In this document: one piece after another, positions 34,737-48,514 of the stretch
Position numbering within the stretch: position 1 is the first letter of the stretch
Layout: the number at the start of each line of letters is the position of its first letter
Source: a virus
Virus record (IMG/VR): IMGVR_UViG_3300042448_001136
Coordinates: 1 to 59,222 of that record
Direction: 5' to 3' (one strand)
DNA length: 59,222 nucleotides
The notes under the pieces: generated by a model
What the model was told of the DNA's origin: nothing
Database searches by the model: none
The model's input: only the letters and a program-made list of their open reading frames with translations
Position numbers and translations under genes: made by a program

Positions 34737-34737
34737 T

Positions 34738-34815: not shown

Positions 34816-34850
34816 GATGTTGTTTTTTGACAACGAGTTGAAAATAATTG

Positions 34851-34980: not shown

Positions 34981-34988
34981 TGATGTTG

Positions 34989-35035
34989 TTGAGTTGATAG
35001 TGACTCAATAAAATGTTCCTTAAAAATTTGTAGAG
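34989..35035 (+). promoter_or_regulatory. nut-like site 2
   Basis: TTGAGT/ACTCAA hairpin (34989-35008), then the same 21 bases as 33495-33515, starting GTTCCTTAAAAATTTG. Confidence 0.55.
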
Positions 35036-35043
35036 TCTAATAT

Positions 35044-35118
35044 ACTGGGTTCGTCTATCGGTTAGGACAGTAGGTTTTCAACCTACTAAGACGGGTTCGA
35101 TTCCCGTACCCAGTACCA
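35044..35118 (+). tRNA. tRNA-Glu (TTC)
   Basis: Acceptor ACTGGGT/ACCCAGT, anticodon loop TTTTCAA in GTAGG/CCTAC, T-loop TTCGATT, CCA encoded. Confidence 0.92.
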
Positions 35119-35232
35119 TATAAAAACATACTCCAGGTTGGGATAGATTCGCGGTCTATCTATTTGGGGAGAAAGACGGTGGAGATATCCACTGAACACT
35201 TCTAAGATACGTAGTATGTTTTTATATGGTAC
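35113..35232 (+). repeat. Family-2 long-stem element, copy I
   Basis: 20 bp perfect inverted repeat (35113-35132 with 35213-35232) starting within the tRNA-Glu 3' end. Internal hairpins GATAGA/TCTATC and GTGGA-GATA-TCCAC. The next tRNA starts three bases later. Confidence 0.75.
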
Positions 35233-35234
35233 CT

Positions 35235-35311
<77 letters not shown>

Positions 35312-35321
35312 TTTAGATTTT

Positions 35322-35399
35322 GGGGGTATAGTGTTAACGGTTCAGCACAGCAGACTTTTAATCTGCCAGGTCAGGGTTCAAATCCCTGTGCCCCTACCA
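35322..35399 (+). tRNA. tRNA-Lys (TTT)
   Basis: Anticodon loop CTTTTAA in GCAGA/TCTGC, T-loop TTCAAAT, CCA encoded. Confidence 0.92.
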
Positions 35400-35508
35400 T
35401 AAGCAAACACATTACTGACGCCTCAGCGAAGGGTTCCGGTTACCCTGTAGCAATCAATAACTTAGGTAGCAGATGGGTTCGCTACATGTAGTGTGTTTAC
35501 TTATGGTA
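35395..35508 (+). repeat. Family-2 long-stem element, copy J
   Basis: 21 bp stem with two G-U pairs (35395-35415 with 35488-35508) starting on the tRNA-Lys CCA; internal GGGT/ACCC and GTAGC/GCTAC hairpins. tRNA-Tyr starts nine bases later. Confidence 0.75.
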
Positions 35509-35516
35509 AAGTTTTT

Positions 35517-35598
35517 GGAGTGGATGCTCTAACGGTAGGGCAGCGGGCTGTAACCCCGTGGCTTCGGCAAGTAGGTTCGATCCCTACCCACTCCACCA
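35517..35598 (+). tRNA. tRNA-Tyr (GTA)
   Basis: Acceptor GGAGTGG/CCACTCC, anticodon loop CTGTAAC, short class II variable arm, T-loop TTCGATC, CCA encoded. Confidence 0.92.
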
Positions 35599-35729
35599 AG
35601 TTCGCTACGCAGGTAGTGATACAATCTTGACAAGAGGGTCAAGCGTTTCTTTCGGATCAACTCCAGTTGGTCTAATCGGTACTCCACGTAAGAGGTACGG
35701 CTAAAGTTCGTAATGCCAAAAGTTTTTAT
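35599..35729 (+). other. Spacer with hairpins, no gene
   Basis: Holds CTTGAC/GTCAAG and GATCAACT/AGTTGGTC hairpins and a GTAC/GTAC pair, but no long terminal stem and no open frame. It may be a diverged family-2 element. Confidence 0.35.
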
Positions 35730-35804
35730 GGTGCGTTCATATAATGGTCATTATCTCGGATTGTCTATCCGAAGACGGGGGTTCGATTCCCCCACGCATC
35801 GCCA
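35730..35804 (+). tRNA. tRNA-Asp (GTC)
   Basis: Acceptor GGTGCGT/ACGCATC with G73, anticodon loop TTGTCTA, T-loop TTCGATT, CCA encoded. Confidence 0.9.
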
Positions 35805-35805
35805 A

Positions 35806-35877
35806 GTTTTAGGATGAGTACAGCAAATAAATTAGCTAAACTTTTTGGTTGTCTAGCGACAAAAATCATCCTGTTGT
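35806..35877 (+). ncRNA. Family-1 Y-RNA-like element, copy A
   Basis: Frame GTTTT-AGGATGA ... ACAGCAAATAAA ... TCATCCT-GTTGT. The closing stem is AGGATGA (35811-35817) with TCATCCT (35866-35872). The insert is a small GCTA/TAGC hairpin. Lies between tRNA-Asp CCA and tRNA-Asn. Confidence 0.65.
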
Positions 35878-35882
35878 TTTAT

Positions 35883-35958
35883 TCCTCAATAGCTCAGTTG
35901 GTAGAGCGTTCCGCTGTTAACGGAAATGTCGGTGGGTCGGAGCCATCTTGGGGAGCCA
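35883..35958 (+). tRNA. tRNA-Asn (GTT)
   Basis: Acceptor TCCTCAA/TTGGGGA, anticodon loop CTGTTAA in TTCCG/CGGAA. The T-loop is GTCGGAG, not the usual TTCGAAT type; otherwise standard, CCA encoded. Confidence 0.85.
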
Positions 35959-35959
35959 A

Positions 35960-36028
35960 TTTTAGAATCGGTTCAGCAAACCAAAAGCATTCAACTTGTA
36001 ATTGAAACCGCAAAAACGATTCTGTTGT
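35960..36028 (+). ncRNA. Family-1 Y-RNA-like element, copy B
   Basis: TTTT-AGAATCG (35964-35970) ... TTCAGCAAACCAAAA ... CGATTCT (36017-36023)-GTTGT. The insert is an anticodon-arm-like hairpin TTCAA-CTTGTAA-TTGAA (35990-36006), reading TGT. Confidence 0.7.
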
Positions 36029-36033
36029 ATATT

Positions 36034-36111
36034 GCCCTCCTACTCCAATCTGGTAGAGAGAGCGGTCTTAGAAGCCGTAAAGTCTCGGTTCGAATCCGAG
36101 GGAGGGCACCA
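36034..36111 (+). tRNA. tRNA-Leu (TAG), short variable arm
   Basis: Acceptor GCCCTCC/GGAGGGC, anticodon loop CTTAGAA, T-loop TTCGAAT, A73, CCA encoded. The variable region is only five bases, whereas bacterial tRNA-Leu normally has a long arm. Confidence 0.85.
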
Positions 36112-36166
36112 AATATCGCCGTGACTGGTGGCGTACAATGAGATAAGTAATCAGTCAACCAAATTT

Positions 36167-36241
36167 GGGCTGTTAGTGATAATGGTAGCACAGTGGCTTT
36201 GCAAGCCTCGGGCAGGAGTTCGATTCTCCTACGGTCCACCA
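36167..36241 (+). tRNA. tRNA-Ala (TGC)
   Basis: Acceptor GGGCTGT/ACGGTCC, anticodon loop TTTGCAA, T-loop TTCGATT, CCA encoded. One T-T mismatch in the anticodon stem. Confidence 0.85.
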
Positions 36242-36343
36242 AATAAGCAAGTTTCTTGCAAGAAGAAAACTGTCAACTCGCCTGCGTTACCGGGCGGCTT
36301 TGATAAAGGCAGGGGTACAAGTCCCAAGGTGATACCAAATTTA

Positions 36344-36418
36344 GCTCTTAAAGCATTGCTGGCGATGCACGGGTCTTGTAAGCCTGAGAATACAGTTCGA
36401 TTCTGTATGAGAGCACCA
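36344..36418 (+). tRNA. tRNA-Thr (TGT)
   Basis: Acceptor GCTCTTA/TGAGAGC, anticodon loop CTTGTAA, T-loop TTCGATT, CCA encoded. Confidence 0.9.
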
Positions 36419-36425
36419 AGTTTTT

Positions 36426-36499
36426 CTCCGATTAGTGAAATGGCATCACCCGTGGTTTGGGACCATGAAGCGCAAGTTCGATTCTTGCATCGGAGACCA
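36426..36499 (+). tRNA. tRNA-Pro (TGG)
   Basis: Acceptor CTCCGAT/ATCGGAG, anticodon loop TTTGGGA, T-loop TTCGATT, CCA encoded. Confidence 0.9.
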
Positions 36500-36507
36500 G
36501 TTTTTAT

Positions 36508-36578
36508 TGCGGGTATTCAGGGTATCGGTAAGTCTCATAAGCTCTACCTAGTAGGTTCGAATCCTACACCCGCAACCA
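36508..36578 (+). tRNA. tRNA (CAT), short D arm
   Basis: Acceptor TGCGGGT/ACCCGCA, anticodon loop CTCATAA but only three good pairs in its stem, T-loop TTCGAAT, CCA. 71 nt with a reduced D arm; Met or Ile2 and possibly weak. Confidence 0.7.
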
Positions 36579-36583
36579 TTTTC

Positions 36584-36658
36584 GGTGATATGGCGTAGAC
36601 GGATGCGCACCGCCCTCATAAGGCGAGGAGGTTGGATCGATACCAACTATCACCACCA
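36584..36658 (+). tRNA. tRNA-Met (CAT)
   Basis: Acceptor GGTGATA/TATCACC, anticodon loop CTCATAA in CCGCC/GGCGA, T-loop ATCGATA, CCA encoded. Third CAT tRNA in the cluster. Confidence 0.85.
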
Positions 36659-36768
36659 AAATGCACAGCATCGCTTTATGCTGTGGCGGGACAGCCTCTG
36701 TATCATATGCACCATGCTTCTCAAACCGCAACTAGAGTTCTCGCAAAAGAACATAGCACAAATTTTAT

Positions 36769-36846
36769 GCGTCCTTAGTTCAACTGGATAGAGCACCGGG
36801 CTACGAACCCGTGAGGTTGGGAGTTCGAATCTCTCAGGACGCGCCA
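36769..36846 (+). tRNA. tRNA-Arg (ACG)
   Basis: Acceptor GCGTCCT/AGGACGC, anticodon loop CTACGAA in CCGGG/CCCGT, T-loop TTCGAAT, CCA encoded. Preceded by a CACAGCAT/ATGCTGTG hairpin at about 36663-36685. Confidence 0.92.
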
Positions 36847-36853
36847 GATTATT

Positions 36854-36928
36854 GCCCTTATAGCTCAGAGGCAGAGCAAACGCTTGATAAGCGTTAGGTC
36901 GACATTTCGAAATTGTCTAAGGGTACCA
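36854..36928 (+). tRNA. tRNA-Ile (GAT)
   Basis: Acceptor GCCCTTA/TAAGGGT, anticodon loop TTGATAA in AACGC/GCGTT, T-loop TTCGAAA, CCA encoded. Confidence 0.92.
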
Positions 36929-36929
36929 A

Positions 36930-36995
36930 GTTTTAGAATCCATTCAGCAAATAAAAACTTTCACTGTAAATGAAACTAAAAGCGGATTCTGTTGT
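36930..36995 (+). ncRNA. Family-1 Y-RNA-like element, copy C
   Basis: GTTTT-AGAATCC (36935-36941) ... TTCAGCAAATAAAAA ... GGATTCT (36984-36990)-GTTGT. The insert is an anticodon-arm-like hairpin TTTCA-CTGTAAA-TGAAA (36959-36975), reading GTA (Tyr). Confidence 0.7.
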
Positions 36996-36999
36996 TTAT

Positions 37000-37076
37000 G
37001 GCTCGGTAGTTCCAATTGGCAGAACGGCGGATTCCAAATCCGCGTGTTGAGGGTTCGAATCCTTCCCGGGTCGCCA
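37000..37076 (+). tRNA. tRNA-Trp (CCA)
   Basis: Acceptor GGCTCGG/CCGGGTC, anticodon loop TTCCAAA in GCGGA/TCCGC, T-loop TTCGAAT, CCA encoded. Confidence 0.92.
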
Positions 37077-37097
37077 GTTATTTAAAAGGGGTACGTT

Positions 37098-37568
37098 ATG
37101 TACAATGATAAAATTGACTTGAATATAGTTAAAGCATACATAGAAAGTTGTGGTCCAGAGACCAAAATTTATCTGGGCTGTGACTCTGAAAAGGTTAAGG
37201 TAAATGGTGTTTGGCATGCCGATTACATCATTGCTATTGTTGTACACATCGATGGCAAACATGGCTGTAAAATCTTCGGTCAAGTCACCCGTGAACGCGA
37301 CTATGAAGTTAAGCGTGACAAACCACGTATGCGTTTGATGAATGAAGTTTACAAGGTTGCGGAAATGTATCTACAATTAGCGGAAATAATTCCTAACGAC
37401 ATTGAAGTGCATCTTGACATAAATCCAAATTTGATGCATAATTCAAGCATCGTAGTAAATGAAGCTGTCGGTTACATAAAGGGTATGTGTAACGTTGTAC
37501 CATTGGTCAAGCCAAACGCATTCGCCGCATCATACGCGGCCGACAGACTGAAAAGTTTAGCGGCTTAG
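37098..37568 (+). CDS. DUF458/YkuK-like RNase H-fold protein
   Basis: 156 aa. IYLGCDSEKVKV holds an acidic RNase H-like start; VEVHLDINPNLMHNSSIVVN then EAVGYIKGM matches the YkuK/DUF458 family, believed to be RNase H-like nucleases. Located between tRNA-Trp and tRNA-Gly, so RNA processing is a fair guess. Confidence 0.7.
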   Translation: MYNDKIDLNIVKAYIESCGPETKIYLGCDSEKVKVNGVWHADYIIAIVVHIDGKHGCKIFGQVTRERDYEVKRDKPRMRLMNEVYKVAEMYLQLAEIIPNDIEVHLDINPNLMHNSSIVVNEAVGYIKGMCNVVPLVKPNAFAASYAADRLKSLAA

Positions 37569-37607
37569 ACGCCGAACCCCGATGCCCATATCGTCAAATG
37601 GGATTTT

Positions 37608-37681
37608 GCGGGGTTAGTTTAGTGGTAAAACACTTTCCTTCCAAGTAAGAGTTGCGAGTTCGATTCTCGCACCCCGCTCCA
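37608..37681 (+). tRNA. tRNA-Gly (TCC)
   Basis: Acceptor GCGGGGT/ACCCCGC, anticodon loop CTTCCAA, T-loop TTCGATT, T73, CCA encoded. Confidence 0.9.
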
Positions 37682-37831
37682 TATTTTATCACATTCCTGT
37701 CTTATACGGGGTTTCAGGTTCCACGATATGTATGCCAGATCGAGAATAGACTTGCAAGGTAATGCTCGGAGTAACATACTAATACCTACAGACGAAAATT
37801 GACAATCGTTTGGGAGTGTGATAAAATATGG
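37679..37831 (+). repeat. Family-2 long-stem element, copy K
   Basis: 19 bp stem with one G-U pair (37679-37697 with 37813-37831) starting on the tRNA-Gly CCA; nested GTCT/AGAC, GTATG/CATAC and CGAG/CTCG helices. A TTGACA-17-TAAAAT promoter-like pair (37799-37827) overlaps its 3' arm. Confidence 0.75.
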
Positions 37832-37836
37832 AAAAT

Positions 37837-37910
37837 GCGTGGTTCGTTTAATGGTAGGACCTAACGTTGCCAACGTTAAGACAAGAGTTCGATTCTCTTA
37901 CCCCGCACCA
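37837..37910 (+). tRNA. tRNA-Gly (GCC)
   Basis: Anticodon loop TTGCCAA in TAACG/CGTTA, T-loop TTCGATT, CCA encoded. One T-C mismatch in the acceptor. Confidence 0.88.
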
Positions 37911-37915
37911 ATTAT

Positions 37916-37990
37916 GGAGATGTTAGTTTAGTGGTAAAACCGCGGGTTGTGATTCCGCTATCACGGGTTCAATTCCCGTACATCTCCCCA
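37916..37990 (+). tRNA. tRNA-His (GTG)
   Basis: Acceptor GAGATGT/ACATCTC with the extra G-1 opposite C73 that marks tRNA-His; anticodon loop TTGTGAT; CCA encoded. Confidence 0.92.
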
Positions 37991-37999
37991 AGGACAATT

Positions 38000-38536
38000 A
38001 TGCAACTAACAAAATTTATTCGTGTGTTTGACAACGTGTTGAGTTCGGATACATGCAATCGGATAATTGCTGAGTTTGAAAATAACAAAGAACATGCGAT
38101 TCATCATGATACTACTGCATATAAATTTGATCAGTTGAATTTGAACAGTTCTGGATTGATGCACATATCACAAGGATTTATACGTCATGTTGTTCCTTTG
38201 ATAAAAGTTTACACACAAGAATTGAATCTTGAATCTTATGTTCCGATAAAAGCATTTGAAGAAGTTCGCATAAAAAAATATAAGAAGAATTCAACCGATG
38301 ACTTCAAAACTCATGTTGATGTTGATGATAAAAATTCTGCGGTTCGCTATTTGATTTTCATTTTGTATTTGAATGACAACAATGGCACAACAACTTTTCC
38401 GCACTTGAATTATTCATACACACCAAGACAAGGAAGCATGATCATGTTTCCACCATTCTGGATGTTTCCTCACTCAGGTGAAACACCAACAGACAATGAT
38501 AAGTATATCATCATGAGTTCATTACATTACTCATAA
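38000..38536 (+). CDS. 2-oxoglutarate/Fe(II) oxygenase (P4H-like)
   Basis: 178 aa. KTHVDVDDKN carries the HxD iron ligands, FPHSGETP the distal His, and YIIMSSLHYS follows the co-substrate-binding region; LYLNDNNGTTTFP is the typical strand. Like the prolyl-4-hydroxylase genes common in large phages. Start ATG 38000 behind AAGGAC. Confidence 0.8.
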   Translation: MQLTKFIRVFDNVLSSDTCNRIIAEFENNKEHAIHHDTTAYKFDQLNLNSSGLMHISQGFIRHVVPLIKVYTQELNLESYVPIKAFEEVRIKKYKKNSTDDFKTHVDVDDKNSAVRYLIFILYLNDNNGTTTFPHLNYSYTPRQGSMIMFPPFWMFPHSGETPTDNDKYIIMSSLHYS

Positions 38537-38538
38537 AA

Positions 38539-38646
38539 GTTTTAGGATAGTTACAGCAAAAAATAACGCACGGTCATGGTGACCAATTTGACTTCTAATC
38601 AAAACTTGAGGGTTCAATTCCCTCTGCAAAACAACTATCCTGTTAT
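38539..38646 (+). ncRNA. Family-1 Y-RNA-like element, copy D
   Basis: GTTTT-AGGATAG (38544-38550) ... TACAGCAAAAAAT ... CTATCCT (38635-38641)-GTTAT. The insert is tRNA-like: GGTCA/TGACC hairpin, anticodon arm TTTGA-CTTCTAA-TCAAA (TCT) and T-arm GAGGG-TTCAATT-CCCTC, but no acceptor stem can be formed. Confidence 0.65.
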
Positions 38647-38699
38647 ATAATGCCCACTAACTCAGCGGTAGAAAATGCTAAATATGTGTAGGAGGAACT

Positions 38700-39146
38700 A
38701 TGACAATATATCACACCCATCACATTTTACCAAGACATGCCGGCGGCACAGATGACCCAAATAATCTTGTGCGGTTAACTATCGAAGAACATGCTGAAGC
38801 GCATAAAATTCTCTATGAGACTTATGGCAGAGAAGAAGACAGAATAGCATGGTTGGGGTTATCCGGTTCTATAGGAAAAGAAGAACTGATTTTGAAGTTG
38901 CAATCTATTGGCGCCTCCATTGGCGGCAAAGGTAATAAAGGAATTTGTAAATCGGATGAACACCGTGAAAAAATTTCAAACGCAATAAAGATTAAATATG
39001 AGTCGCAGGAAATGCGAGATAAAACATCAGCCGCCATGAGAGGTAATGTAAATTCAAAAAATCATTCAAGTGAGGAATACAGAAAAGCGCAGAGTGAAAG
39101 GCTAAAAGCTGCGTGGAAGAAACGAAAAAATGCCTCGGTAGTTTAA
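38700..39146 (+). CDS. HNH homing endonuclease
   Basis: 148 aa. YHTHHILPRHAGGTDDPNNL then VRLTIEEHAEAHKILYE is the HNH core; the basic C-terminal repeats (KSDEHREKISNAIKIKYE, SSEEYRKAQSERLKAAWK) are NUMOD-type DNA-binding helices. AGGAGG precedes the ATG. Its last five codons lie in tRNA-Val. Confidence 0.85.
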   Translation: MTIYHTHHILPRHAGGTDDPNNLVRLTIEEHAEAHKILYETYGREEDRIAWLGLSGSIGKEELILKLQSIGASIGGKGNKGICKSDEHREKISNAIKIKYESQEMRDKTSAAMRGNVNSKNHSSEEYRKAQSERLKAAWKKRKNASVV

Positions 39147-39205
39147 TGGTAGAACGCCATCTTTACACGGTGGATATGGGAGTTCGATTCTCCAACGAGG
39201 TACCA
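39132..39205 (+). tRNA. tRNA-Val (TAC)
   Basis: Anticodon loop TTTACAC in CCATC/GGTGG, T-loop TTCGATT, CCA encoded. The 5' end is shared with the HNH gene's stop. Confidence 0.88.
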
Positions 39206-39209
39206 ATTC

Positions 39210-39283
39210 GCTCCCATAGTACAGTGATAGTACACGCCCTTGGTACGGGCGAGACCTGAGTTTGATTCTCGGTGAGAGCACCA
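39210..39283 (+). tRNA. tRNA-Thr (GGT)
   Basis: Anticodon loop TTGGTAC in CGCCC/GGGCG, T-loop TTTGATT, CCA encoded. One C-A mismatch in the acceptor. Confidence 0.88.
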
Positions 39284-39288
39284 TATAT

Positions 39289-39364
39289 GCCGATATAGCT
39301 CAGGTGGTAGAGCAGTAGACTGAAAATCTATGTGTCCCAAGTTCAACTCTTGGTATCGGTACCA
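39289..39364 (+). tRNA. tRNA-Phe (GAA)
   Basis: Acceptor GCCGATA/TATCGGT, anticodon loop CTGAAAA in GTAGA/TCTAT, CCA encoded. Confidence 0.92.
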
Positions 39365-39453
39365 TTGATAAACACATTCACATATCCGCCCGAGTAGTAA
39401 GGGAGACAGCGACTAACCGTTGAAGGAATGTTCAAGAGTGTGTTTTTCAATGG
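39362..39453 (+). repeat. Family-2 long-stem element, copy L
   Basis: 18-base arms (39362-39379 with 39436-39453; one mismatch, one G-U) from the tRNA-Phe CCA to the first bases of tRNA-Lys. Short interior, about 55 nt. Confidence 0.7.
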
Positions 39454-39526
39454 GTTGTAAACTTAGTTGGTGAAGTAACCGGCTCTTAACCGGAAGAACA
39501 GAGTTCGATTCTCTGACGACCCACCA
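39452..39526 (+). tRNA. tRNA-Lys (CTT)
   Basis: Acceptor GGGTTGT/ACGACCC, anticodon loop CTCTTAA in ACCGG/CCGGA, T-loop TTCGATT, CCA encoded. Confidence 0.9.
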
Positions 39527-39533
39527 CGATTCT

Positions 39534-39610
39534 GCGGATATAGCGCAACAGGTAGAGGCAAAAGACTTAAAATCTTTCAAGTCTGGGTTCGAATCCCAGT
39601 ATCCGCACCA
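39534..39610 (+). tRNA. tRNA-Leu (TAA), short variable arm
   Basis: Acceptor GCGGATA/TATCCGC, anticodon loop CTTAAAA in AAAGA/TCTTT, T-loop TTCGAAT, CCA. Variable region five bases. Confidence 0.88.
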
Positions 39611-39613
39611 TAT

Positions 39614-39690
39614 GCCCTCGTAGCCCAATTGGTAGAGGCGATGGATTCAAAATCCATTCAGTGTCAGTTCAAATCTGACCGAGGGTACCA
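39614..39690 (+). tRNA. tRNA-Leu (CAA), short variable arm
   Basis: Acceptor GCCCTCG/CGAGGGT, anticodon loop TTCAAAA in ATGGA/TCCAT, T-loop TTCAAAT, CCA. Variable region five bases. Confidence 0.88.
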
Positions 39691-39697
39691 CACCAAT

Positions 39698-39772
39698 GTC
39701 TCTATAGTTCAATGGACAGAATAGGGACCTCCTAAGTCCCGGATACAGGTTCGATTCCTGTTGGAGACACCA
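39698..39772 (+). tRNA. tRNA-Arg (CCT)
   Basis: Acceptor GTCTCTA/TGGAGAC, anticodon loop CTCCTAA in GGGAC/GTCCC, T-loop TTCGATT, CCA encoded. Confidence 0.92.
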
Positions 39773-39789
39773 TAACAGAAAGATCAAAT

Positions 39790-40329
39790 ATGTCACATAC
39801 AAGTCAAGTAAATTTTGTTCGGAGTTTGAAAGAACAATATCCTGAAAAATTCAAAAACATAAAAATGTTAGAGGTGGGCAGTTTAAACATAAACGGCACC
39901 ATACGCGATTTCTTTGAAGACTGTAGATACCTCGGATACGATGTTGGCGCAGGAAGATGTGTTGACGTTGTTTATGATGGTTTGAATTTCAATGAAGGTG
40001 ACAATACACTTGATACCGCAGGTAGTTGCAATTGCTTTGAGCATAATCCAAATTGGGTAAGCAATTTCCGTGACATGCATAGAATGCTCAAACCAGGTGG
40101 TCTGTTGTTCATTAGTGTTCCGACAACAGGCAATCCAGTACACGGAACAAGTGGTGACAAACCAGAAGATAGTCCTTTGACGATATCTAAAGGCTGGGAA
40201 TACTACAAAAATTTGACAGTTGAGGATTTCACAGAAAACTTTGACTTGGAAAGTATGTTCAGTTCACATAATTTCCGAATCATCCATGAACCACATCACG
40301 ACTTGTTCTTTTACGGATTCAAGAAGTAA
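39790..40329 (+). CDS. SAM-dependent methyltransferase (class I)
   Basis: 179 aa. Motif I is replaced by MLEVGSLNINGTIRDFF; acidic loop GYDVGAGRCVDVVYDG; motif post-III RMLKPGGLLFISVPT typical of class I methyltransferases. Substrate unknown; location next to tRNAs and the Ro gene allows an RNA target but sugar or protein targets are equally possible. Confidence 0.75.
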   Translation: MSHTSQVNFVRSLKEQYPEKFKNIKMLEVGSLNINGTIRDFFEDCRYLGYDVGAGRCVDVVYDGLNFNEGDNTLDTAGSCNCFEHNPNWVSNFRDMHRMLKPGGLLFISVPTTGNPVHGTSGDKPEDSPLTISKGWEYYKNLTVEDFTENFDLESMFSSHNFRIIHEPHHDLFFYGFKK

Positions 40330-40354
40330 TTTTGGTAAACATGCAAACAAGATA

Positions 40355-40383
40355 TTGACTCTACAGATTTTTAGTGATATAAT
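40355..40383 (+). promoter_or_regulatory. Promoter of the Y-RNA/Ro unit
   Basis: TTGACT, 17 bp, TATAAT; the transcript should start about 40390, some 15 bases before element E. An AATTCAT/ATGAATT palindrome overlaps the start. Confidence 0.75.
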
Positions 40384-40403
40384 TCATCTATGAATTGAGA
40401 AAA

Positions 40404-40578
40404 GTTTTAGGATAGGTTCTGCAACCAAACTAACGGCGTCAAAAACCGTAACTGTGGTCTGGACGTGGATAATAGCTGGAGCCTGTATGGGCTTTGAAGG
40501 TTGTTATCATCAACACAATCGGACGAGGTGAGTTTCGTGTTCTCACTGTAAACAAAAAGAAGAAAACTATCCTGTTGT
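40404..40578 (+). ncRNA. Family-1 Y-RNA-like element, copy E
   Basis: GTTTT-AGGATAG (40409-40415) ... TCTGCAACCAAAC ... CTATCCT (40567-40573)-GTTGT. The longest copy (175 nt): internal hairpins ACGG/CCGT, AGCC/GGCT and GTGAG/CTCAC. First in the unit with copies F, G and the Ro-like gene. Confidence 0.65.
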
Positions 40579-40586
40579 ATTTGAAA

Positions 40587-40698
40587 GTTTTAGAGTAGGT
40601 TCAGCAAAACAAAAACTAGCTGGTTCGATTCCAGCATTACCAACCAGCCGAAAGGCAATCTGGTGATGTGCCTTGGGGCAATCAAACTACTCTGTTAT
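40587..40698 (+). ncRNA. Family-1 Y-RNA-like element, copy F, with tRNA-like module
   Basis: GTTTT-AGAGTAG (40592-40598) ... TTCAGCAAAACAAAA ... CTACTCT (40687-40693)-GTTAT. Insert order: T-arm GCTGG-TTCGATT-CCAGC, acceptor-like ATTACCA paired with TGGTGAT across a GCC-GAAA-GGC cap, then D-arm TGCC-TTGG-GGCA. A tRNA whose acceptor is closed by a loop and whose ends sit at the anticodon stem, as in bacterial YrlA RNA. Confidence 0.7.
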
Positions 40699-40823
40699 TT
40701 TTAGGTTAAGTTCCGCAACAAAAATGCAAATGAAAACCTCGAGACCGGTTCGATTCCGGATCACCCGAATGGGTGTCTGATGTAATGGTAGCATAGAGGA
40801 CGCAAAAAAGTTTAACCTGTTGA
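40698..40823 (+). ncRNA. Family-1 Y-RNA-like element, copy G, with tRNA-like module
   Basis: TTTT-AGGTTAA (40703-40709) ... TTCCGCAACAAAAA ... TTAACCT (40812-40818)-GTTGA. Insert: CCTC, T-arm CCGG-TTCGATT-CCGG, acceptor CACCC-GAAT-GGGTG tetraloop hairpin, D-arm ATGT-AATGGTA-GCAT with the conserved GG, then GAGG pairing back with CCTC. Ends 19 bases before the Ro-like ATG. Confidence 0.75.
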
Positions 40824-40841
40824 CTTTGAAAGGAAATTATT

Positions 40842-42281
40842 ATGTCAACTTTCGTAGAAGCCGTGATGAATCAAGAAGCCCGTACCACAAATGGTATGAA
40901 GGCACGTAAGTCAACCGCAAACGCTGTGGTTGATATGTTTTACAACATCGGTGCAAGCCGTGGCAAGGATGTTATCCCAACATTCGTTGCTGCATTCGCC
41001 GAGAACAAAGAATTAGCACTTCGCGTGGCCGCATGGTCGCGTGACGCACGTGGTGGTGCAGGCGAACGTCAATTGTTCCGTGATATTCTAAAGTATCTGG
41101 AAAAGACTGACACTGTAGCTGCTAAGGCTTTGTTACACAAAGTCCCTGAATTGGGGCGTTGGGACGATATCTTTATCTTTGATACTAAAGAGATGAAGGA
41201 AGCTGCTTACACTATGCTGGGCGATGCATTGCGCGCCAAGAATGGTTTGGCTGCAAAGTGGACACCTCGTCAAGGTCCAATCGCTGTTGAAGTTCGTAAG
41301 TTCTTCGGCATGTCGCCTAAGTTTTACCGTAAGTCTTTGGTTGAAATGACCAAAGTTGTTGAAACTCAAATGTGTGCTAAGGAATGGGACACCATCAACT
41401 TCTCACACGTACCGTCAGTTGCATCAGCACGATACAAGAAAGCATTCAACCGTAACACACCAGAATATGGTAAGTATGTTGCTGAGTTGATGAAGGATCC
41501 AAAAGATCGCACCGTTGAAGTAAAAGTCAACGCTGGCGCTGTGTATCCATATGATGTGTTGAAGGGTCGTATCAACTCCTACGGAGTGAAGTTTGACAAG
41601 ACTGAATTGGACTTGATCCAAAAGCAATGGGAAGCACTGCCAAACTACGTTGGCGATGGAAACATCCTACCTCTGGTAGACGTTTCTGGTTCTATGTCAT
41701 GCCCAGCTGGTGGACACGGTTCAAACAGCAAGTTGTCATGTATGGAAGTTGCAGTCTCTTTGGGATTGTATCTTGCAGACAAGAACACTGGTAAGTTCAA
41801 GGATACATTCTTGACCTTCTCAACTAACCCAGAGTTGTTGCACCTGAAAGGTAACATCAACCAAAAGATTGATCAAATGGTCAAGTCTAACTGGGCTATG
41901 AGCACTGACTTGAGCAAGGCGTTTGCAAAAATTCTTGCTACCGCAGTAGGTGCCGGTGTTCCACAGAATGAAATGCCAGAAATGGTATTGATTCTGTCAG
42001 ATATGCAGTTCAATCAATGTGTTAATCACGATGATTCTGCTATCCAAATGATCGCACGAAAGTACGAAGCCGCAGGATACACCTTGCCAAAGGTTGTGTT
42101 CTGGAACTTGAATGCTTCATATGGCAACTCGCCAGTGAAGTTTGACAAGTCTGGTACCGCACTTGTGTCTGGTTTCTCTCCAGCAGTTGTCAAGCCATTG
42201 CTTGCAGGTGATCTGGAAGACTTTACACCAGAGTCCGTGATGTTGAAAACCATCCTGAGCGACCGATACGCAGTATTGTAA
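40842..42281 (+). CDS. TROVE/Ro60-like RNA-binding protein with vWA domain (DUF2828-type)
   Basis: 479 aa, homologous in layout to Ro60/Rsr, the ring protein that binds Y RNAs and misfolded RNAs. The N-terminal helical-repeat part includes TTNGMKARKSTANAVVDMFY, RDARGGAGERQLFRDILKYL and VPELGRWDDIF. The C-terminal von Willebrand A domain has the MIDAS motif PLVDVSGSMS (about residue 276-285), a Thr in FLTFSTNPE and Asp in ILSDMQFN. In bacteria Rsr with Y RNA tethers PNPase for RNA decay or assists rRNA maturation. Three Y-RNA-like elements lie directly upstream on the same transcript. AAAGGAA precedes the ATG. Confidence 0.85.
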   Translation: MSTFVEAVMNQEARTTNGMKARKSTANAVVDMFYNIGASRGKDVIPTFVAAFAENKELALRVAAWSRDARGGAGERQLFRDILKYLEKTDTVAAKALLHKVPELGRWDDIFIFDTKEMKEAAYTMLGDALRAKNGLAAKWTPRQGPIAVEVRKFFGMSPKFYRKSLVEMTKVVETQMCAKEWDTINFSHVPSVASARYKKAFNRNTPEYGKYVAELMKDPKDRTVEVKVNAGAVYPYDVLKGRINSYGVKFDKTELDLIQKQWEALPNYVGDGNILPLVDVSGSMSCPAGGHGSNSKLSCMEVAVSLGLYLADKNTGKFKDTFLTFSTNPELLHLKGNINQKIDQMVKSNWAMSTDLSKAFAKILATAVGAGVPQNEMPEMVLILSDMQFNQCVNHDDSAIQMIARKYEAAGYTLPKVVFWNLNASYGNSPVKFDKSGTALVSGFSPAVVKPLLAGDLEDFTPESVMLKTILSDRYAVL

Positions 42282-42291
42282 TAAATATTGC

Positions 42292-42316
42292 GGGAGACTC
42301 AAACGAGTCTCCATTT
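42292..42316 (+). terminator. Hairpin terminator after Ro-like gene
   Basis: GGAGACTC-AAAC-GAGTCTCC followed by ATTTTG; the short T stretch makes it moderate. Confidence 0.6.
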
Positions 42317-42394
42317 TGAAGTACATTGCTGAAGTTGGTTCAGTCAGGCAAGCCGCATCCAATAGGCTATGTCCGTTAGTGTATTTCAAAATGG
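42311..42394 (+). repeat. Family-2 long-stem element, copy M
   Basis: 15 bp arms with one G-U (42311-42325 with 42380-42394), abutting tRNA-Arg. Unlike the other copies it follows a terminator hairpin rather than a tRNA CCA. Confidence 0.65.
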
Positions 42395-42469
42395 CTGGGG
42401 TTCGTATAGTGGAAAATACAGGGAGCTTCTACCTCCTAAACAGCGGTTCGATTCCGTTACCCCGGACCA
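42395..42469 (+). tRNA. tRNA-Arg (TCT)
   Basis: Acceptor CTGGGGT/ACCCCGG, anticodon loop CTTCTAC in GGGAG/CTCCT, T-loop TTCGATT, CCA encoded. Last tRNA of the cluster. Confidence 0.9.
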
Positions 42470-42753: not shown

Positions 42754-42778
42754 TGTATTTATGATTTACATAAATACA
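42754..42778. promoter_or_regulatory. Palindromic bidirectional late promoter
   Basis: TGTATTTATG and CATAAATACA are perfect inverted copies five bases apart, giving CATAAATA (T4-late-like) on each strand: leftward to the 42723 gene, rightward to csgF. The csgF ATG is only six bases after the right copy. Confidence 0.65.
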
Positions 42779-42781
42779 AAC

Positions 42782-43219
42782 ATGAAGAGTGTAATATTTT
42801 TTCTATTTATGTGTATGGTCATTCCGACACATGCACAATTAGCTTTCCAGTTCAAGTCTCCAGCTTTTACTGGTATCGGCTATTCCTCTCACGTTCAGAC
42901 TATAGAAAATACTGAGCGAACGCGCCGAGATGCAGTTGAATCTGCAAAATTGCAAGCTGCAAGGGATGCAGCGGCCGAAGCCAAGAATACGAATCTCCAG
43001 AAATTTCTGAATAACTTTGAAAGCCGAGTATATGCTCAACTTTCTTCTCAGCTAGTAAATAATCTTTTCGGCGAAAATCCACAGGATTCTGGACAAGTCA
43101 CCGTGGGTGACAACACAATAAAATATTTCAAAACTGATAGTGACATAAATTTGATGGTAACCTCTTCGGACGGTTCTGTGACTGAGATTATAATTCCAGT
43201 TGGCCAATTCAAATTCTAA
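42782..43219 (+). CDS. csgF: CsgF-like curli assembly protein
   Basis: 145 aa, periplasmic partner that caps the CsgG pore. Signal peptide MKSVIFFLFMCMVIPTHAQ, then the CsgF signature LAFQFKSPAFTGIGYSS. Middle is a charged helix (KLQAARDAAAEAKNTNLQKF); the end (VTSSDGSVTEIIIPVGQF) matches the CsgF beta tail. Coupled to csgG by TAATG overlap. Confidence 0.85.
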   Translation: MKSVIFFLFMCMVIPTHAQLAFQFKSPAFTGIGYSSHVQTIENTERTRRDAVESAKLQAARDAAAEAKNTNLQKFLNNFESRVYAQLSSQLVNNLFGENPQDSGQVTVGDNTIKYFKTDSDINLMVTSSDGSVTEIIIPVGQFKF

Positions 43220-44016
43220 TGACACTTATAAAAATTATATTAGCAGCTTTTATAGTGCTTGCATTGACTGGCTGCGCATCATGGCCAATTCAGTTTGAGG
43301 CCAAAGAAGCCGAGCAAGTGGCACCAACTAAATTCAAGGTTCCGTTTCCTGAGCCTGAGTCAGGACAGCCAATCGTTGTTGCTGTGTATGCATTCACTGA
43401 TAAGACGGGACAGAGGAAGGACAGTGCAACGATTGCTAAACTTTCTTCCGCAGTAACACAGGGTGCTGAGTCTTTATTATTGAAAGCATTATCTGATGTT
43501 GGTGATGGCAAATGGTTTAGAATTGTTGAGCGTGTTGGTTTGGACAACTTATTAAAAGAACGTCAACTGATTCGTAGTGCAAGAGATGAAGCTAAAGAGC
43601 CAAATATACTTCGTCCTATATTGTATGCAGGCATGATTATTGAAGGATCAATTGTTTCGTATGATACGAACAAACGAACAGGTGGCTTCGGCGTAAGATA
43701 TTTGGGCGTGGGCCCAATGACGCAGTATCAGGAAGATATGGTTACAGTTTCACTTAGAGCAGTGAACGTACAAACAGGTGAAGTCATATTGACAGTCAAC
43801 ACACAGAAAACAATTTTGAGTGTTGCAACGTCATTATCGACATTCAAATTTTATGACCAAGGAAGAACCTCTTTTGAGGGTGAGATAGGTAGCACATCCA
43901 CTGAACCTGGAATATATGCAGTAAAAGCAGCAATAGATTTGGCTGTTGAAGAACTGGTATATCAGGGACAGCGAAAAGGACTTTGGCAATTCAAACAACT
44001 ACAATTAGGAGAATAA
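43219..44016 (+). CDS. csgG: CsgG-like outer-membrane secretion pore lipoprotein
   Basis: 265 aa. Lipoprotein signal with lipobox LALTGC. CsgG features: VVAVYAFTDKTGQRKDSATI, WFRIVERVGLDNLLKERQLI, AGMIIEGSIVSYDTN and the transmembrane hairpin region YQEDMVTVSLRAVNVQTGEV. In bacteria nine subunits form the curli export pore. In a phage it may export the curlin-like protein or open the outer membrane. Confidence 0.92.
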   Translation: MTLIKIILAAFIVLALTGCASWPIQFEAKEAEQVAPTKFKVPFPEPESGQPIVVAVYAFTDKTGQRKDSATIAKLSSAVTQGAESLLLKALSDVGDGKWFRIVERVGLDNLLKERQLIRSARDEAKEPNILRPILYAGMIIEGSIVSYDTNKRTGGFGVRYLGVGPMTQYQEDMVTVSLRAVNVQTGEVILTVNTQKTILSVATSLSTFKFYDQGRTSFEGEIGSTSTEPGIYAVKAAIDLAVEELVYQGQRKGLWQFKQLQLGE

Positions 44017-44021
44017 ATCCA

Positions 44022-44729
44022 ATGAAAAAGACAATACTTTTAGGTATCATGTCTTTATTATTCGTCACCAACATTTTTGCACAATCAAGTGGTGACAACT
44101 CAGTGTATATTGATCAGACGAATGCGGACAATTCTACAGTCAGCATTACACAAACAGGCTCAGGAAACAAAGTTGGTGATCGGAGCGATCTTGTTACGCC
44201 AGCATTCATCATAGACGGAAACGCTATGGACTTAACTATTGTTCAGGACGGAATGAACAACAGTATAGTCGGCAATTTTATTGGCGGTGACTCAATTGCA
44301 AACATCACACAAACTGGAAGCACAAACAGCACGACAATGACAATGGGCAACTTTGGCACAAACGCAGGAACAATGAATCTCACATTGACTGGTGATAACA
44401 ACACCACAAATTGGACATTCGGTCCAACTGCAAATGCTGGAAACTATCAATACAATTTGCTTGCTGTTGGTAACAGTAACGCAATCACCAGCACGATCAA
44501 CAGTAAGTATGTTGAAAACAACATAACAATTACTGGCGATTCAAACACATATACGACAACGCAATCTGGTGCAAACGGCACATCTCTGATCGCAGGTCAT
44601 AAGATAACCAGTACAATCATTGGCTCACAAAATGTGGTTTCAATCACTCAGAATGGAACAACAACTCCTAACATAGTGACGCTAAATGTTACAGGTTCTG
44701 GTACTACTCATACTATTATTCAGCACTAA
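44022..44729 (+). CDS. Curlin-like repeat protein
   Basis: 235 aa with signal peptide MKKTILLGIMSLLFVTNIFA. The mature part is built of Asn/Gln/Thr/Ser-rich repeats such as VYIDQTNADNSTVSITQTGS and ANITQTGSTNSTTM, the x-Q-x-G-x-x-N logic of CsgA/CsgB. A probable substrate of the CsgG pore. Its 3' end overlaps the FecR gene by 44 bases. Confidence 0.75.
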   Translation: MKKTILLGIMSLLFVTNIFAQSSGDNSVYIDQTNADNSTVSITQTGSGNKVGDRSDLVTPAFIIDGNAMDLTIVQDGMNNSIVGNFIGGDSIANITQTGSTNSTTMTMGNFGTNAGTMNLTLTGDNNTTNWTFGPTANAGNYQYNLLAVGNSNAITSTINSKYVENNITITGDSNTYTTTQSGANGTSLIAGHKITSTIIGSQNVVSITQNGTTTPNIVTLNVTGSGTTHTIIQH

Positions 44730-45714
44730 TTCTTACGCATCAATCGGCAAAGTTACTGAGGAGAAAGGTAGCGCAGAAATTGTCCGTAGCAAATCAAAAG
44801 TAGACGCCAAAATGAATGTTGGCGTTGAGGCTATGGACAGTATTCAAACTGCTAGAGGTGTAATAGGAATTACGTTTGAAGACGACACTAAAGTCCGTGT
44901 GACTGAACACTCACGTTTGGTCATAGATGATTTTGTGTACGATCCCAAATCAAAAGGTGCAGGTAAACTTGCCATGCGTGTTGCTTTGGGCACTGTGCGA
45001 TATGCCTCTGGTGGCATAGCAAAAGATAATAATAAAAACGTCAATATAAAAACACCAACAGCGACAGTCGCGGTTCGTGGTACGGCGTTTACTATGACTG
45101 TGGATGAAATTGGTCAATCTATGGTAATTCTTTTACCCAATGCTGACGGTTCTATTGGAGAGATTGAAGTGAGCAGCGCGATGGGATCGGTTGTACTCAC
45201 CCAAGCATTTCAAGCAACACACGTTTCAATGTCTGAGGTGAAGCCTATGAAACCAGTGTTGTTGAAATTGTCTGAGTCTGCAATAGACAATATGTTGATC
45301 GTGAGTCCACCAAAAGAAATCATTCGTCAATTATTGGAAGATAATTTGACAGCAAATGATCCTCTGGCATTTGTTGAACTTGATCGTAACGCACTTGATG
45401 TTCCTGTTTGGAAAGATGATCTATCGTTCAATGAATTGAACATCAATGCTCTTGATTCTGATTACTTGACTAATGAATTAGACTTTTTATTGATGAACAC
45501 CTTCAAAGTTGGTTTCAATGCTTTTACACAAGTGTATGTTATTGACAAAGGTGATAAATGGCAGATTGATAGGCAGATAACTCAAGCTGCAACGATACTA
45601 ATAAATAAAGAACGTGGTTATGAAATCATCCTGATACAAGATCGTTCCACAGTTACGGTCAAAAATCAAGACGATGTGACCAACAGGATTTATATAAAAC
45701 AGGTTTCAAAATGA
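44686..45714 (+). CDS. FecR-domain exported protein
   Basis: 342 aa. Signal peptide MLQVLVLLILLFSTNSYAS, then a FecR domain (about 20-180): GKVTEEKGSAEIVRS, GVEAMDSIQTARG, VRYASGGIAK, NIKTPTATVAVRGTAFTM. No anti-sigma N-terminus, so it is a periplasmic sensor or scaffold. Coupled to the CHASE2-cyclase gene by ATGA; FecR/CHASE2-cyclase pairs occur in bacterial genomes. Confidence 0.8.
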   Translation: MLQVLVLLILLFSTNSYASIGKVTEEKGSAEIVRSKSKVDAKMNVGVEAMDSIQTARGVIGITFEDDTKVRVTEHSRLVIDDFVYDPKSKGAGKLAMRVALGTVRYASGGIAKDNNKNVNIKTPTATVAVRGTAFTMTVDEIGQSMVILLPNADGSIGEIEVSSAMGSVVLTQAFQATHVSMSEVKPMKPVLLKLSESAIDNMLIVSPPKEIIRQLLEDNLTANDPLAFVELDRNALDVPVWKDDLSFNELNINALDSDYLTNELDFLLMNTFKVGFNAFTQVYVIDKGDKWQIDRQITQAATILINKERGYEIILIQDRSTVTVKNQDDVTNRIYIKQVSK

Positions 45715-47711
45715 AGAGATTACTATCGCCATGGCTAGCCATCATAACACTCATATTGTTGATTGGTGTTAGAATTGCTGATCCTTCATTTGTTGAATCC
45801 ACAAGGTTGCGTTATTTTGACCAACTTATAACATCAAAAGAGAGCACAGAGTCCGAACAAGTCGCTGTGGTAAACATAGATGACGAAACTATTCGGAAAC
45901 AAGGACAGTTCCCGTTCCCTCGTGGACAATATGCATCCATTGTTGCTGATCTTTATGGGCGTGGCGCTGGGCTGGTTGTTCTTAATATCTTCATGCCTGA
46001 TCGTGATAGGTTTGGTGAAGACAGTAAACTACTTTCTGTTTTAAAAGAATATCCTGTTGTATTTCCACATACAGCAACCGATGATCCGACAATAAAGAAT
46101 AATGCATTCAGACCTGGCGTTTCAATCATCGGTGAAGGTGATCCAGGAATCAAGTATGATTCCATTTTATCTAACGTAAAGGTTATCAATGAAAACGCTG
46201 CTGGTATTGGTATTGTCAACACTATTCCTGAACTTGACGGCGTTGTCCGAAGAGTCCCAATGCTCATCAACATCGGTGGGCAACTATATCCAAGTATCTC
46301 ACTTGAAACCCTGCGAGTCGCCGCGGGTGACCCTTCCTTTCAAGTCAAGATCAACGATGGAGCAATTGAGGCAGTTAGAATTCCACAGTTTGGAAAAATC
46401 ACAACAGACAGTTACAGTAGAGTCTGGGTGGATTGGTCATCCCGAGCGCCCGAATATTCCTTGGCTAATTTGCCAAAAGACTTCGGTGGTAAAATTGTCA
46501 TTGTTGGACTATCCGCCAGAGGACTCAACAATCCAGTCGCAACAGCAAGAGGTGAAGTCTACCCACACCACTTGCAAGCCTCTGTCCTCGACACGGTAGC
46601 AAGCGGGACAAACATATCGCGACCAGACTGGGCAACTGGTGCAGAATTGATTTCAATCGTGTTGGTGTGTTTGATTACACTAGCACTCACTAGGTTTACA
46701 CATGGATACATATTCGCAATCTTATTCGCCGTTGCAGCATACTACACAAGCCATGAGTTATTTTTACGATCAGGCTATTTGGTTGATGCTGTGTGGCCGA
46801 TACTTACCGTTACCCTTGTCTCTTTCCACGGCTACGTTGTCAAATTCTTGGTTGAACTACGCCAAAAATTACAAATCAAAAAGCAATTCGGAACCTACCT
46901 TTCACCAGCTTTGGTTGAAAAGCTCCAACGAAATCCTGAACTACTACAACTTGGTGGCGAATCAAGAGAACTTTCAATAATGTTCACCGATGTGCGAGGA
47001 TTCACTGCGATATCTGAGCACTACGGTAAAGACGTTCAAGGATTGACAAAGATCATGAACCGTTACATGACGGCTATGACGAAACAAATTATAGAGAACA
47101 ATGGCACACTTGATAAGTATATTGGTGATGCTCAAATGGCGTTTTGGAACGCACCAGTTGATGAACCGAATCACGCTAAGATGGCGGTGAAGACTGCACT
47201 AGAAATGATGGATAGTTTAGATGCATTCAATAAAGAAGTTGTCGCTGAAGGTGTTCCGGCTTTTGGCATGGGTCTTGGTATTAATACTGGAGTTGTTGTT
47301 GTTGGTAATATGGGCAGTGACCAGCGTTTTGACTATACTTGTCTTGGTGATCATGTCAATCTCGCAGCTAGGCTTGAAGGCCAGTCAAAGCCTTATGGTG
47401 TGCGTATCGTTCTTGGTCCTCAAACTGCAAATCAAGTATCCGACTCTTACAGTATCTTTGAATTGGATTGTATTGCAGTTAAGGGCAAGAAGGAGGGTGT
47501 TAAAATCTACACCCTCGCAATAGAAACGGAACTCCACCGAGAATTCTTAGAGAGATACTATGCTGGAAATTGGGACGATGCGGTCAGGTCAATTTACTAT
47601 TGCAAGAATGCAAGCCCAGAAATGATTCCGTACTATGATGCAATGCTTGAGAGATTACAAGAAGGTAAGCCCGCAAACTGGGACGGAACATTTAGAGCAA
47701 CAAGCAAGTAA
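45711..47711 (+). CDS. CHASE2 sensor - class III adenylate/guanylate cyclase
   Basis: 666 aa. TM1 about 8-22; periplasmic CHASE2 domain about 30-300 (AVVNIDDETIRKQGQFPFPR, GKIVIVGLSARGLNNPVATA); three TM helices about 310-375; a coiled linker; catalytic domain about 415-600 with MFTDVRGFTAISE (metal Asp), DKYIGDAQMAFWNAP (second Asp), MGLGINTGVVVVGNMGS and YTCLGDHVNLAARLE (Asn/Arg). Catalytic residues look intact, so it should make cAMP or cGMP in response to a periplasmic signal. Very unusual cargo for a phage. Confidence 0.9.
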   Translation: MKRLLSPWLAIITLILLIGVRIADPSFVESTRLRYFDQLITSKESTESEQVAVVNIDDETIRKQGQFPFPRGQYASIVADLYGRGAGLVVLNIFMPDRDRFGEDSKLLSVLKEYPVVFPHTATDDPTIKNNAFRPGVSIIGEGDPGIKYDSILSNVKVINENAAGIGIVNTIPELDGVVRRVPMLINIGGQLYPSISLETLRVAAGDPSFQVKINDGAIEAVRIPQFGKITTDSYSRVWVDWSSRAPEYSLANLPKDFGGKIVIVGLSARGLNNPVATARGEVYPHHLQASVLDTVASGTNISRPDWATGAELISIVLVCLITLALTRFTHGYIFAILFAVAAYYTSHELFLRSGYLVDAVWPILTVTLVSFHGYVVKFLVELRQKLQIKKQFGTYLSPALVEKLQRNPELLQLGGESRELSIMFTDVRGFTAISEHYGKDVQGLTKIMNRYMTAMTKQIIENNGTLDKYIGDAQMAFWNAPVDEPNHAKMAVKTALEMMDSLDAFNKEVVAEGVPAFGMGLGINTGVVVVGNMGSDQRFDYTCLGDHVNLAARLEGQSKPYGVRIVLGPQTANQVSDSYSIFELDCIAVKGKKEGVKIYTLAIETELHREFLERYYAGNWDDAVRSIYYCKNASPEMIPYYDAMLERLQEGKPANWDGTFRATSK

Positions 47712-48056
47712 TTAGCCTTCACCTGCGGATGCCGTTTTAACGTCTTCTTGGTCAATGCCTTTCGCTGATGCTGTGATAATCTTTTTGTTGATTTCTTCTT
47801 CGGCAATCACACGTTCATGTTCAATTGTTTTGCCGCGTAAGTGGAGAACAACATCAACCTTTTGATTCAGGCGAATCAAATCATTGTCTAGCATACGAAT
47901 ACGATCAATCAATGCGATTAGAACAGTGTTTGCGTTACTCAACACAGGTTTGACTTCTTTTGTGGCCCAAGTCCATACAAAAAATATCATGTATCCCATG
48001 CCACCTGCAGCAACGATGGGAAATCCATACTTATTGATCAGTTCTACTGGATCCAT
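47712..48056 (-). CDS. Membrane protein, holin-like candidate
   Basis: 114 aa. One N-terminal TM (YGFPIVAAGGMGYMIFFVWT) and a long charged coiled tail. Paralogous in layout to the 48514 gene (N-terminal TM then NANTV...IDRIRMLDNDLIRLNQ versus DNRVKTMNHDVIRID). Two such proteins together resemble BhlA/holin-type pairs; lysis role inferred. Confidence 0.55.
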   Translation of the reverse strand: MDPVELINKYGFPIVAAGGMGYMIFFVWTWATKEVKPVLSNANTVLIALIDRIRMLDNDLIRLNQKVDVVLHLRGKTIEHERVIAEEEINKKIITASAKGIDQEDVKTASAGEG

Positions 48057-48216
48057 CTTTTACGACCTTTCGGAGAATGATTCTACCATCAAAGCTAACG
48101 TGTACAATAAACTGATCGCCGCTTGCAACTTGCAAACTTTTTGCAGCCAGCTCTTTGTCCATCAGGATTGAACCGTCAGGAAGGGTCTCAAAATAATAAT
48201 CTGCGAATAACATCAA
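48031..48216 (-). CDS. Small late protein, unknown
   Basis: 61 aa: MMLFADYYFETLPDGSILMD then HVSFDGRIILRKVVKDGS. Beta-rich. Overlaps the start of the holin-like gene by 26 bases. AAGGAG precedes the ATG. Confidence 0.55.
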   Translation of the reverse strand: MMLFADYYFETLPDGSILMDKELAAKSLQVASGDQFIVHVSFDGRIILRKVVKDGSSRTDQ

Positions 48217-48235: not shown

Positions 48236-48514
48236 TTAATCACGGCGCGCATCATTTTTACCATCAGCCCTGGCGATTCTATTTACGTCAGGCTTCAAAC
48301 CAAGCGCATTTGACACAACGGTATCAATACGGATAACATCATGGTTCATAGTCTTCACACGGTTATCCAGTGCTGTAATTATACCAGCCAAACCCTGTAC
48401 AGAACCCATAACTCCTGCTAGAATAAACTTCAACGTTAGAAAAATAAAGTATCCGCCAGCAAGTGCTGCCGCGATAGGAAACCCTAGCTCCGCAACTAAT
48501 CTAAAAAAGTCCAT
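48236..48514 (-). CDS. Membrane protein, holin-like candidate 2
   Basis: 92 aa. N-terminal hydrophobic segments (LGFPIAAALAGGYFIFLTLK then FILAGVMGSVQGLAG), then a charged tail. Shares LGFPI..A.AGGY and the DNRV...D.IRID register with the 48056 gene, so probably a paralogue. Confidence 0.55.
   Translation of the reverse strand: MDFFRLVAELGFPIAAALAGGYFIFLTLKFILAGVMGSVQGLAGIITALDNRVKTMNHDVIRIDTVVSNALGLKPDVNRIARADGKNDARRD

Follow-up and report, generated by a model that had tools for sequence, protein, structure and literature searches.

A conserved curli-type export module with a FecR-domain protein and a CHASE2 cyclase in an IMG/VR viral record

Genes of curli-type (type VIII) secretion have been described in several phages. 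The csgF/csgG genes and a curli cluster were reported in pelagimyophages (PMC7029224), and the pore of phage Melnitz was modelled with AlphaFold and a role in lysis was suggested (PMC9004378). In 2022, a complete region csgF-csgG-csgA/B-FecR-(csgA/B)-AC, with AC for adenylyl cyclase and with one or two "histidine kinases" ahead of csgF, was described in podo- and myoviruses among the pelagiphages and was present at all 65 GOV2.0 ocean stations and expressed (PMC9599517). These accounts of phage curli modules report no tested function, including fibre export, virion binding, and lysis. Here, a module of this kind was analyzed in the IMG/VR record IMGVR_UViG_3300042448_001136. The window is the entire record of 59,222 bases, which has no end repeats and is therefore probably a fragment. 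Five genes, for CsgF, CsgG, a curlin-repeat protein, a FecR-domain protein, and a CHASE2 cyclase, were found head to tail on the plus strand, as the initial annotation had proposed. We interpret them, with a probability of about 0.5, as a phage-borne curli-type export module with a built-in cyclic AMP (cAMP) export sensor.

The csgF homolog (42782-43219, +) encodes 145 amino acids (aa) with a signal peptide followed by an FQFKSPAF segment, and matched PF10614 with an E value of 2.6e-15 (57 bits against a cut-off of 25.8). The csgG homolog (43219-44016, +; 265 aa) encodes an outer-membrane pore lipoprotein that contains the lipobox LTGC by sequence reading and matched PF03783 (5.5e-54) and the Escherichia coli CsgG structures (E value 6e-47). 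From these matches, the identities of CsgG and CsgF are unambiguous. The third gene (44022-44729, +; 235 aa) encodes a CsgA/B-like secreted protein with putative curlin repeats (PF07012, 0.013), for which the NCBIfam models CsgA (1.9e-4) and CsgB (1.3e-3) both scored below their curated cut-offs. Its ortholog in locus L026 was above the Pfam cut-off with four repeats, and the AlphaFold model of the window protein consisted of 16 beta strands with a predicted local distance difference test (pLDDT) score of 83 and a predicted template modelling (pTM) score of 0.80. These are followed by a periplasmic FecR-domain protein with a signal peptide (44686-45714, +; 342 aa; PF04773, 2.9e-8) and by a protein combining CHASE2 and a class III adenylyl cyclase (45711-47711, +; 666 aa; PF05226, 8.5e-38, and PF00211, 7.6e-22). 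The genes had been described as back to back and overlapping from position 42754 to 47711. The end and the place of this span hold, the start moves to that of csgF at 42782, and three pairs do overlap (csgF/csgG by 1 base, curlin/fecR by 44 bases, and fecR/AC by 4 bases), but csgG and the curlin gene are 5 bases apart. No csgD was seen beside the module.

The conservation of the module was analyzed in viral contigs, where a CsgG search gave 103 relatives, of which 80 were kept. Gene order was counted in the 43 loci with at least 5.5 kb downstream of csgG; many of them are near-duplicates, and the 43 are not independent cases. The csgG, curlin, FecR, and cyclase genes were all present in 43/43 loci, and csgF in 42/43, the remaining locus being cut at its end. 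Since the order recurs throughout, the grouping is not due to chance, and the domains together with these loci bear out the claim that the export genes and the sensor-cyclase form one conserved phage module. A second curlin gene precedes the cyclase in 13/43 loci, and the cyclase is inverted but still adjacent in four (L034, L036, L037, and L051). In some loci, passenger genes for a RimK-like ligase, glycosyltransferase, URO-D, or metallophosphoesterase lie between FecR and the cyclase, and the core persists. The phage metallophosphoesterases near some modules were considered as a loop-closing cAMP phosphodiesterase; they appeared LpxH-like by eye and were not used.

In comparison to the pelagiphage type VIII secretion module, the window has the same order csgF-csgG-curlin-FecR-(curlin)-cyclase, found in Melnitz (gp99 to gp104) as csgF, csgG, curlin, FecR, curlin, and cyclase and in HTVC008M (gp014 to gp019) as csgF, csgG, curlin, two further genes, and cyclase. 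The joint occurrence of FecR and cyclase genes with csgFG, which had been regarded as novel, was thus already present in these genomes and was described as a set in PMC9599517. The window differs in the lack of a second curlin, in a CsgG belonging to a separate clade, and in the tRNA-rich genome. With the bacterial curli operon (csgDEFG/csgBAC of E. coli), it shares CsgG, CsgF, and a substrate with putative curlin repeats, and it differs by the added FecR and CHASE2 cyclase, both of which are missing from the sampled alphaproteobacterial csg loci. The module is genuine, but its kind has already been published and little of the observation is new. What this analysis adds concerns the FecR tail, a reinterpretation of two small proteins, the finding that bacteria keep the two halves at separate loci, and a bacterial copy. 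The gene gp018 of HTVC008M (L002:8594-9919), annotated as hypothetical, was observed to encode a second curlin that combines a PA14 domain with five curlin repeats, which points to glycan binding or adhesion.

AlphaFold modelled the FecR protein (pLDDT 76) as a FecR domain, a linker of low confidence, and a series of short strands at the C terminus. The domain matched the cell-surface signalling domain of PupR (6ovk, E value 1.2e-4). This signalling fold is shared with the FecR/PupR anti-sigma regulators, from which the window protein differs in having no anti-sigma domain and in its cyclase partner. A function as an anti-sigma factor was rejected, as Pfam and the model show nothing but a signal helix ahead of the FecR domain and no N-terminal anti-sigma domain was found. 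The tail of predicted beta strands (45513-45711, +; about residues 276 to 342) has a curlin-like I-x-I-x-Q end, and Q339 is invariant across 47 aligned sequences. The motif [IVLT]-x-[IVLT]-x-Q at the extreme C terminus was found in 51/54 distinct FecR tails and 53/65 curlin tails, compared to 45/1647 (2.7%) tails of other open reading frames (ORFs). Bacterial curlins are among these control tails, and the Fisher value ignores relatedness. The resemblance between FecR and curlin tails consists of a shared motif, not of a significant profile match, and this curlin-like end, new here, suggests that the sensor is tied to the fibre.

The cyclase of the window contains D427, K469, D473, D541, N550, and R554, that is, both metal-binding Asp residues, the Lys/Asp purine pair, the Asn, and the Arg, and it matched adenylyl cyclases in the PDB, including CyaB (3r5g, E value 1.2e-28). 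Of the two outputs first suggested, cAMP is predicted from these residues and cyclic GMP is unlikely. Both metal Asp residues, the Lys, and the Arg are kept in all 101 aligned cyclases, and the whole canonical set in 72. In the other 29, Ser or Gly replaces the Asp of the second purine site, together with Ser for the transition-state Asn in 28. This subtype is recurrent (L003, L074, L082, L008, L011, and others), and close relatives differ in subtype, such as L008 and L013. A cNMP_binding domain was absent from 16 phage records, while control genomes were positive. Pycsar defence was also rejected, as the PycC models matched via the shared cyclase domain only and the same 16 records had no cNMP_binding domain.

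Two small genes follow the cyclase on the opposite strand. The product of p1 (47712-48056, -; 114 aa) has an N-terminal hydrophobic helix and a conserved LIALIDRIRMLDNDLIRL helix, and that of p2 (48236-48514, -; 92 aa) is its paralog with a conserved DARRD end; the hydrophobic helix and the conserved second helix of both were judged by eye. In HTVC008M and Melnitz, two small proteins are instead encoded just upstream of csgF. Homologs of p1/p2 were present in 80/83 viral module loci, usually two per locus and often directly upstream of csgF. When viral contigs were searched independently with p2, 29 loci had the full 20 kb; csgG is present in 22 of them, and in the other 7 the cyclase is present and the module is cut by the edge. 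Among 50,697 phage records, p1 matched only HTVC008M and Melnitz phages, and CsgG matched only these and one unannotated 1.5-kb Salmonella-phage scaffold. No homologs were found in the bacterial csg loci examined, nor in the bacterial copies L088/L089 described below. By sequence, p1 and p2 are near-obligate partners of the module. They gave no significant Pfam match, no HisKA or HATPase match, and no holin family in Pfam or NCBIfam; one homolog had a very weak YvrJ match. The genes preceding csgF in HTVC008M and Melnitz also encode membrane proteins of 92 to 115 aa without a HisKA/HATPase match, and p1/p2 probably correspond to the published "histidine kinases" of PMC9599517. If so, that name would be wrong, since there is no kinase domain. 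A small ORF overlapping the 5' end of p1 (48031-48216, -) showed a subthreshold MazE/AbrB-like match (E value 3.4e-4).

Bacterial counterparts were searched in 385 genomes of the class of a Caulobacteraceae metagenome-assembled genome (MAG), the Alphaproteobacteria. A strong CsgG match was found in 6/385 genomes. Examined csg loci in other Alphaproteobacteria and in Bacteroidota contained csgF, csgG, or curlins and no FecR or cyclase. Away from csg genes, at least 24/385 genomes have a FecR gene and a CHASE2 cyclase no more than about 3 kb apart, with coordinates read by hand. These pairs resemble the window in an exported FecR-domain protein beside a CHASE2 enzyme and differ in not lying beside csg genes and in often being much longer: ten of their FecR frames ranged from 358 to more than 1400 aa, several with at least 1000 residues and some cut by the fetched region, and none of the ten ends like the phage FecR. 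Related arrangements have been reported as a Campylobacterota cluster with FecR, phosphodiesterase, and tetratricopeptide repeat genes (PMC9239204) and as FecR beside a CHASE2 histidine kinase in Burkholderia (PMC5192318), and in Sinorhizobium, the CHASE2 cyclases CyaD1, CyaD2, and CyaK respond to the outer-membrane protein NsrA (PMC13001267).

The full set was otherwise observed only in two Caulobacteraceae MAGs (L088/L089), in the order csgF-csgG-curlin-curlin-fecR-cyclase (L088:7224-14533). Full modules in L085, L086, L091, L093, and L133 were set aside as short contigs of bins and probable misbinned phage. G003 had four strong CsgG matches, each on a contig of its own. The L088/L089 module is apparently chromosomal, with flanking genes for cytochrome c, TetR, and an amidohydrolase, named by eye. 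A phosphoesterase just upstream of csgF in L088 looked CpdA-like by eye. The Caulobacteraceae FecR protein matched end to end at 432 bits, tail included, compared to 134 bits and the FecR domain only for the next bacterial FecR, and its cyclase at 1021 bits compared to 588 for the next best. In the midpoint-rooted tree, the CsgG of L088/L089 grouped within the phage clade (support 97). The tree is compatible with two histories: phages combined two bacterial systems and then transferred the set to a bacterium, or the Caulobacteraceae lineage is near the donor.

At the sequence level, the module comprises CsgF, the CsgG lipoprotein of the outer-membrane pore, a substrate with putative curlin repeats, a secreted FecR protein, an inner-membrane CHASE2 cyclase, and two small membrane proteins. 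In the proposed mechanism, the curlin protein would reach the cell surface via CsgG/CsgF and form adhesive fibres there. In the periplasm, the FecR protein, with its curlin-strand-like tail, may bind the pore or curlin awaiting export and would contact the CHASE2 domain, so that cAMP output reports whether export or assembly runs. Docking on CHASE2 is suggested by analogy with the bacterial FecR/CHASE2 neighbors and the Sinorhizobium CHASE2 cyclases. As no phage cNMP-binding receptor was found in the 16 records, the cAMP would act on host receptors. The most likely benefit would be siblings or virions held near the infected cell, or shielding from rival phages, and the PA14-bearing second curlin of HTVC008M fits adhesion. 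The persistence of the cyclase near the module even when inverted was counted in favor of the export sensor.

Several observations weigh against this interpretation. Cultures infected with Melnitz did not clump (PMC9004378). The window curlin is under the PF07012 cut-off, and a PDB fold search with its model gave no significant match. No CsgE or CsgC was seen beside csgFG, the search for CsgE being confined to this neighborhood. The curlin C-terminal profile matched only 2/59 FecR tails with an E value below 0.01, and the activity of the 29 residue-altered cyclases is doubtful. More tentatively, the module could be a machine that exports fibres in a closed loop and that, as a unit, is almost without counterpart in bacteria. 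The curlin-tailed FecR would then sample periplasmic subunits and switch the CHASE2 cyclase, p1/p2 would serve as gate, coupler, or effector, and the phages would have joined two bacterial systems and later passed them to a bacterial chromosome (L088/L089).

The carrier was characterized from the remaining genes of the window and from a 168-kb relative, the record behind locus L014, which has many window genes in common and module proteins 64 to 85% identical. The window contains 28 tRNA genes (33526-42469, +), a nearly full set, with a DUF2828/DUF7788 Ro60-like RNA-binding protein gene among them (40842-42281) and an RNA ligase gene upstream (30367-31374). Other genes encode NrdA/NrdB, thymidylate synthase, primase, DNA and RNA ligases, exonuclease, PhoH, and a head protease. 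A permuted transfer-messenger RNA (tmRNA) of the alphaproteobacterial type (57878-58258, +; RF04321, 101 bits, and RF01849, 53 bits) hints at an alphaproteobacterial host. The relative also has a tmRNA, with the tag ANDTVYALAA. It carries 27 tRNAs and a tail sheath whose nearest counterparts are the T4-like sheaths of Pelagibacter, Melnitz, Stenotrophomonas, Ochrobactrum, and cyanophages. The carrier of the module is probably a tRNA-rich T4-like myovirus of an alphaproteobacterium.

That the block is an assembly artefact or host DNA in a viral bin had been named as a possible refutation and could be imagined from the known bacterial homologs of all five genes. However, the same module occurs in dozens of other contigs, including the HTVC008M and Melnitz genomes and the 168-kb relative with its tail sheath and tRNAs, the phage copies form their own CsgG clade, and the G+C content is 0.414 both within the module and in the rest of the window, so that host contamination is unsupported and an artefact is effectively excluded. 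An ungated CsgG pore admitting nutrients or siderophores, with FecR as an iron-linked regulator, was raised in PMC7029224 and PMC9599517, and the PupR-type fold of the FecR domain agrees with it. The missing anti-sigma domain and the CHASE2 cyclase as partner speak against such a regulator, csgF and the curlin would be unexplained, and we regard nutrient uptake as quite improbable.

A role in lysis, as proposed for Melnitz from AlphaFold models (PMC9004378), would have CsgG and CsgF open the outer membrane late and aid depolarisation or lysis, with p1/p2 as a holin pair and the curlin secondary. It accords with the lack of a CsgE gate beside csgFG and with p1/p2 as small single-hydrophobic-helix paralogs always near the module, one homolog of which gave the very weak YvrJ match. 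It offers no explanation for the sensor-cyclase, the FecR tail, or the conservation of the curlin, p1/p2 match no holin family, and the restriction of p1 to HTVC008M and Melnitz among the phage records means that other T4-like phages lyse without it; we consider lysis an unlikely main function. If raising host cAMP were instead the main aim, the curli genes would be mainly an input triggering the cyclase. The cyclase is indeed kept in all 43 loci, and the different catalytic subtypes in close relatives suggest selection for having a cyclase there, but purine-site residues are altered in 29 of the 101 cyclases, no phage-encoded cAMP receptor was found, and the export genes are conserved equally, which makes this order of purposes unlikely. 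The export module with a cAMP sensor remains our preferred interpretation.

With the FecR tail and p1/p2, there are concrete handles for testing which protein senses what and whether fibre export is reported by cAMP. If the interpretation is true, phages would remodel the surface and the second-messenger state of abundant aquatic bacteria via an assembly joined from two bacterial systems.

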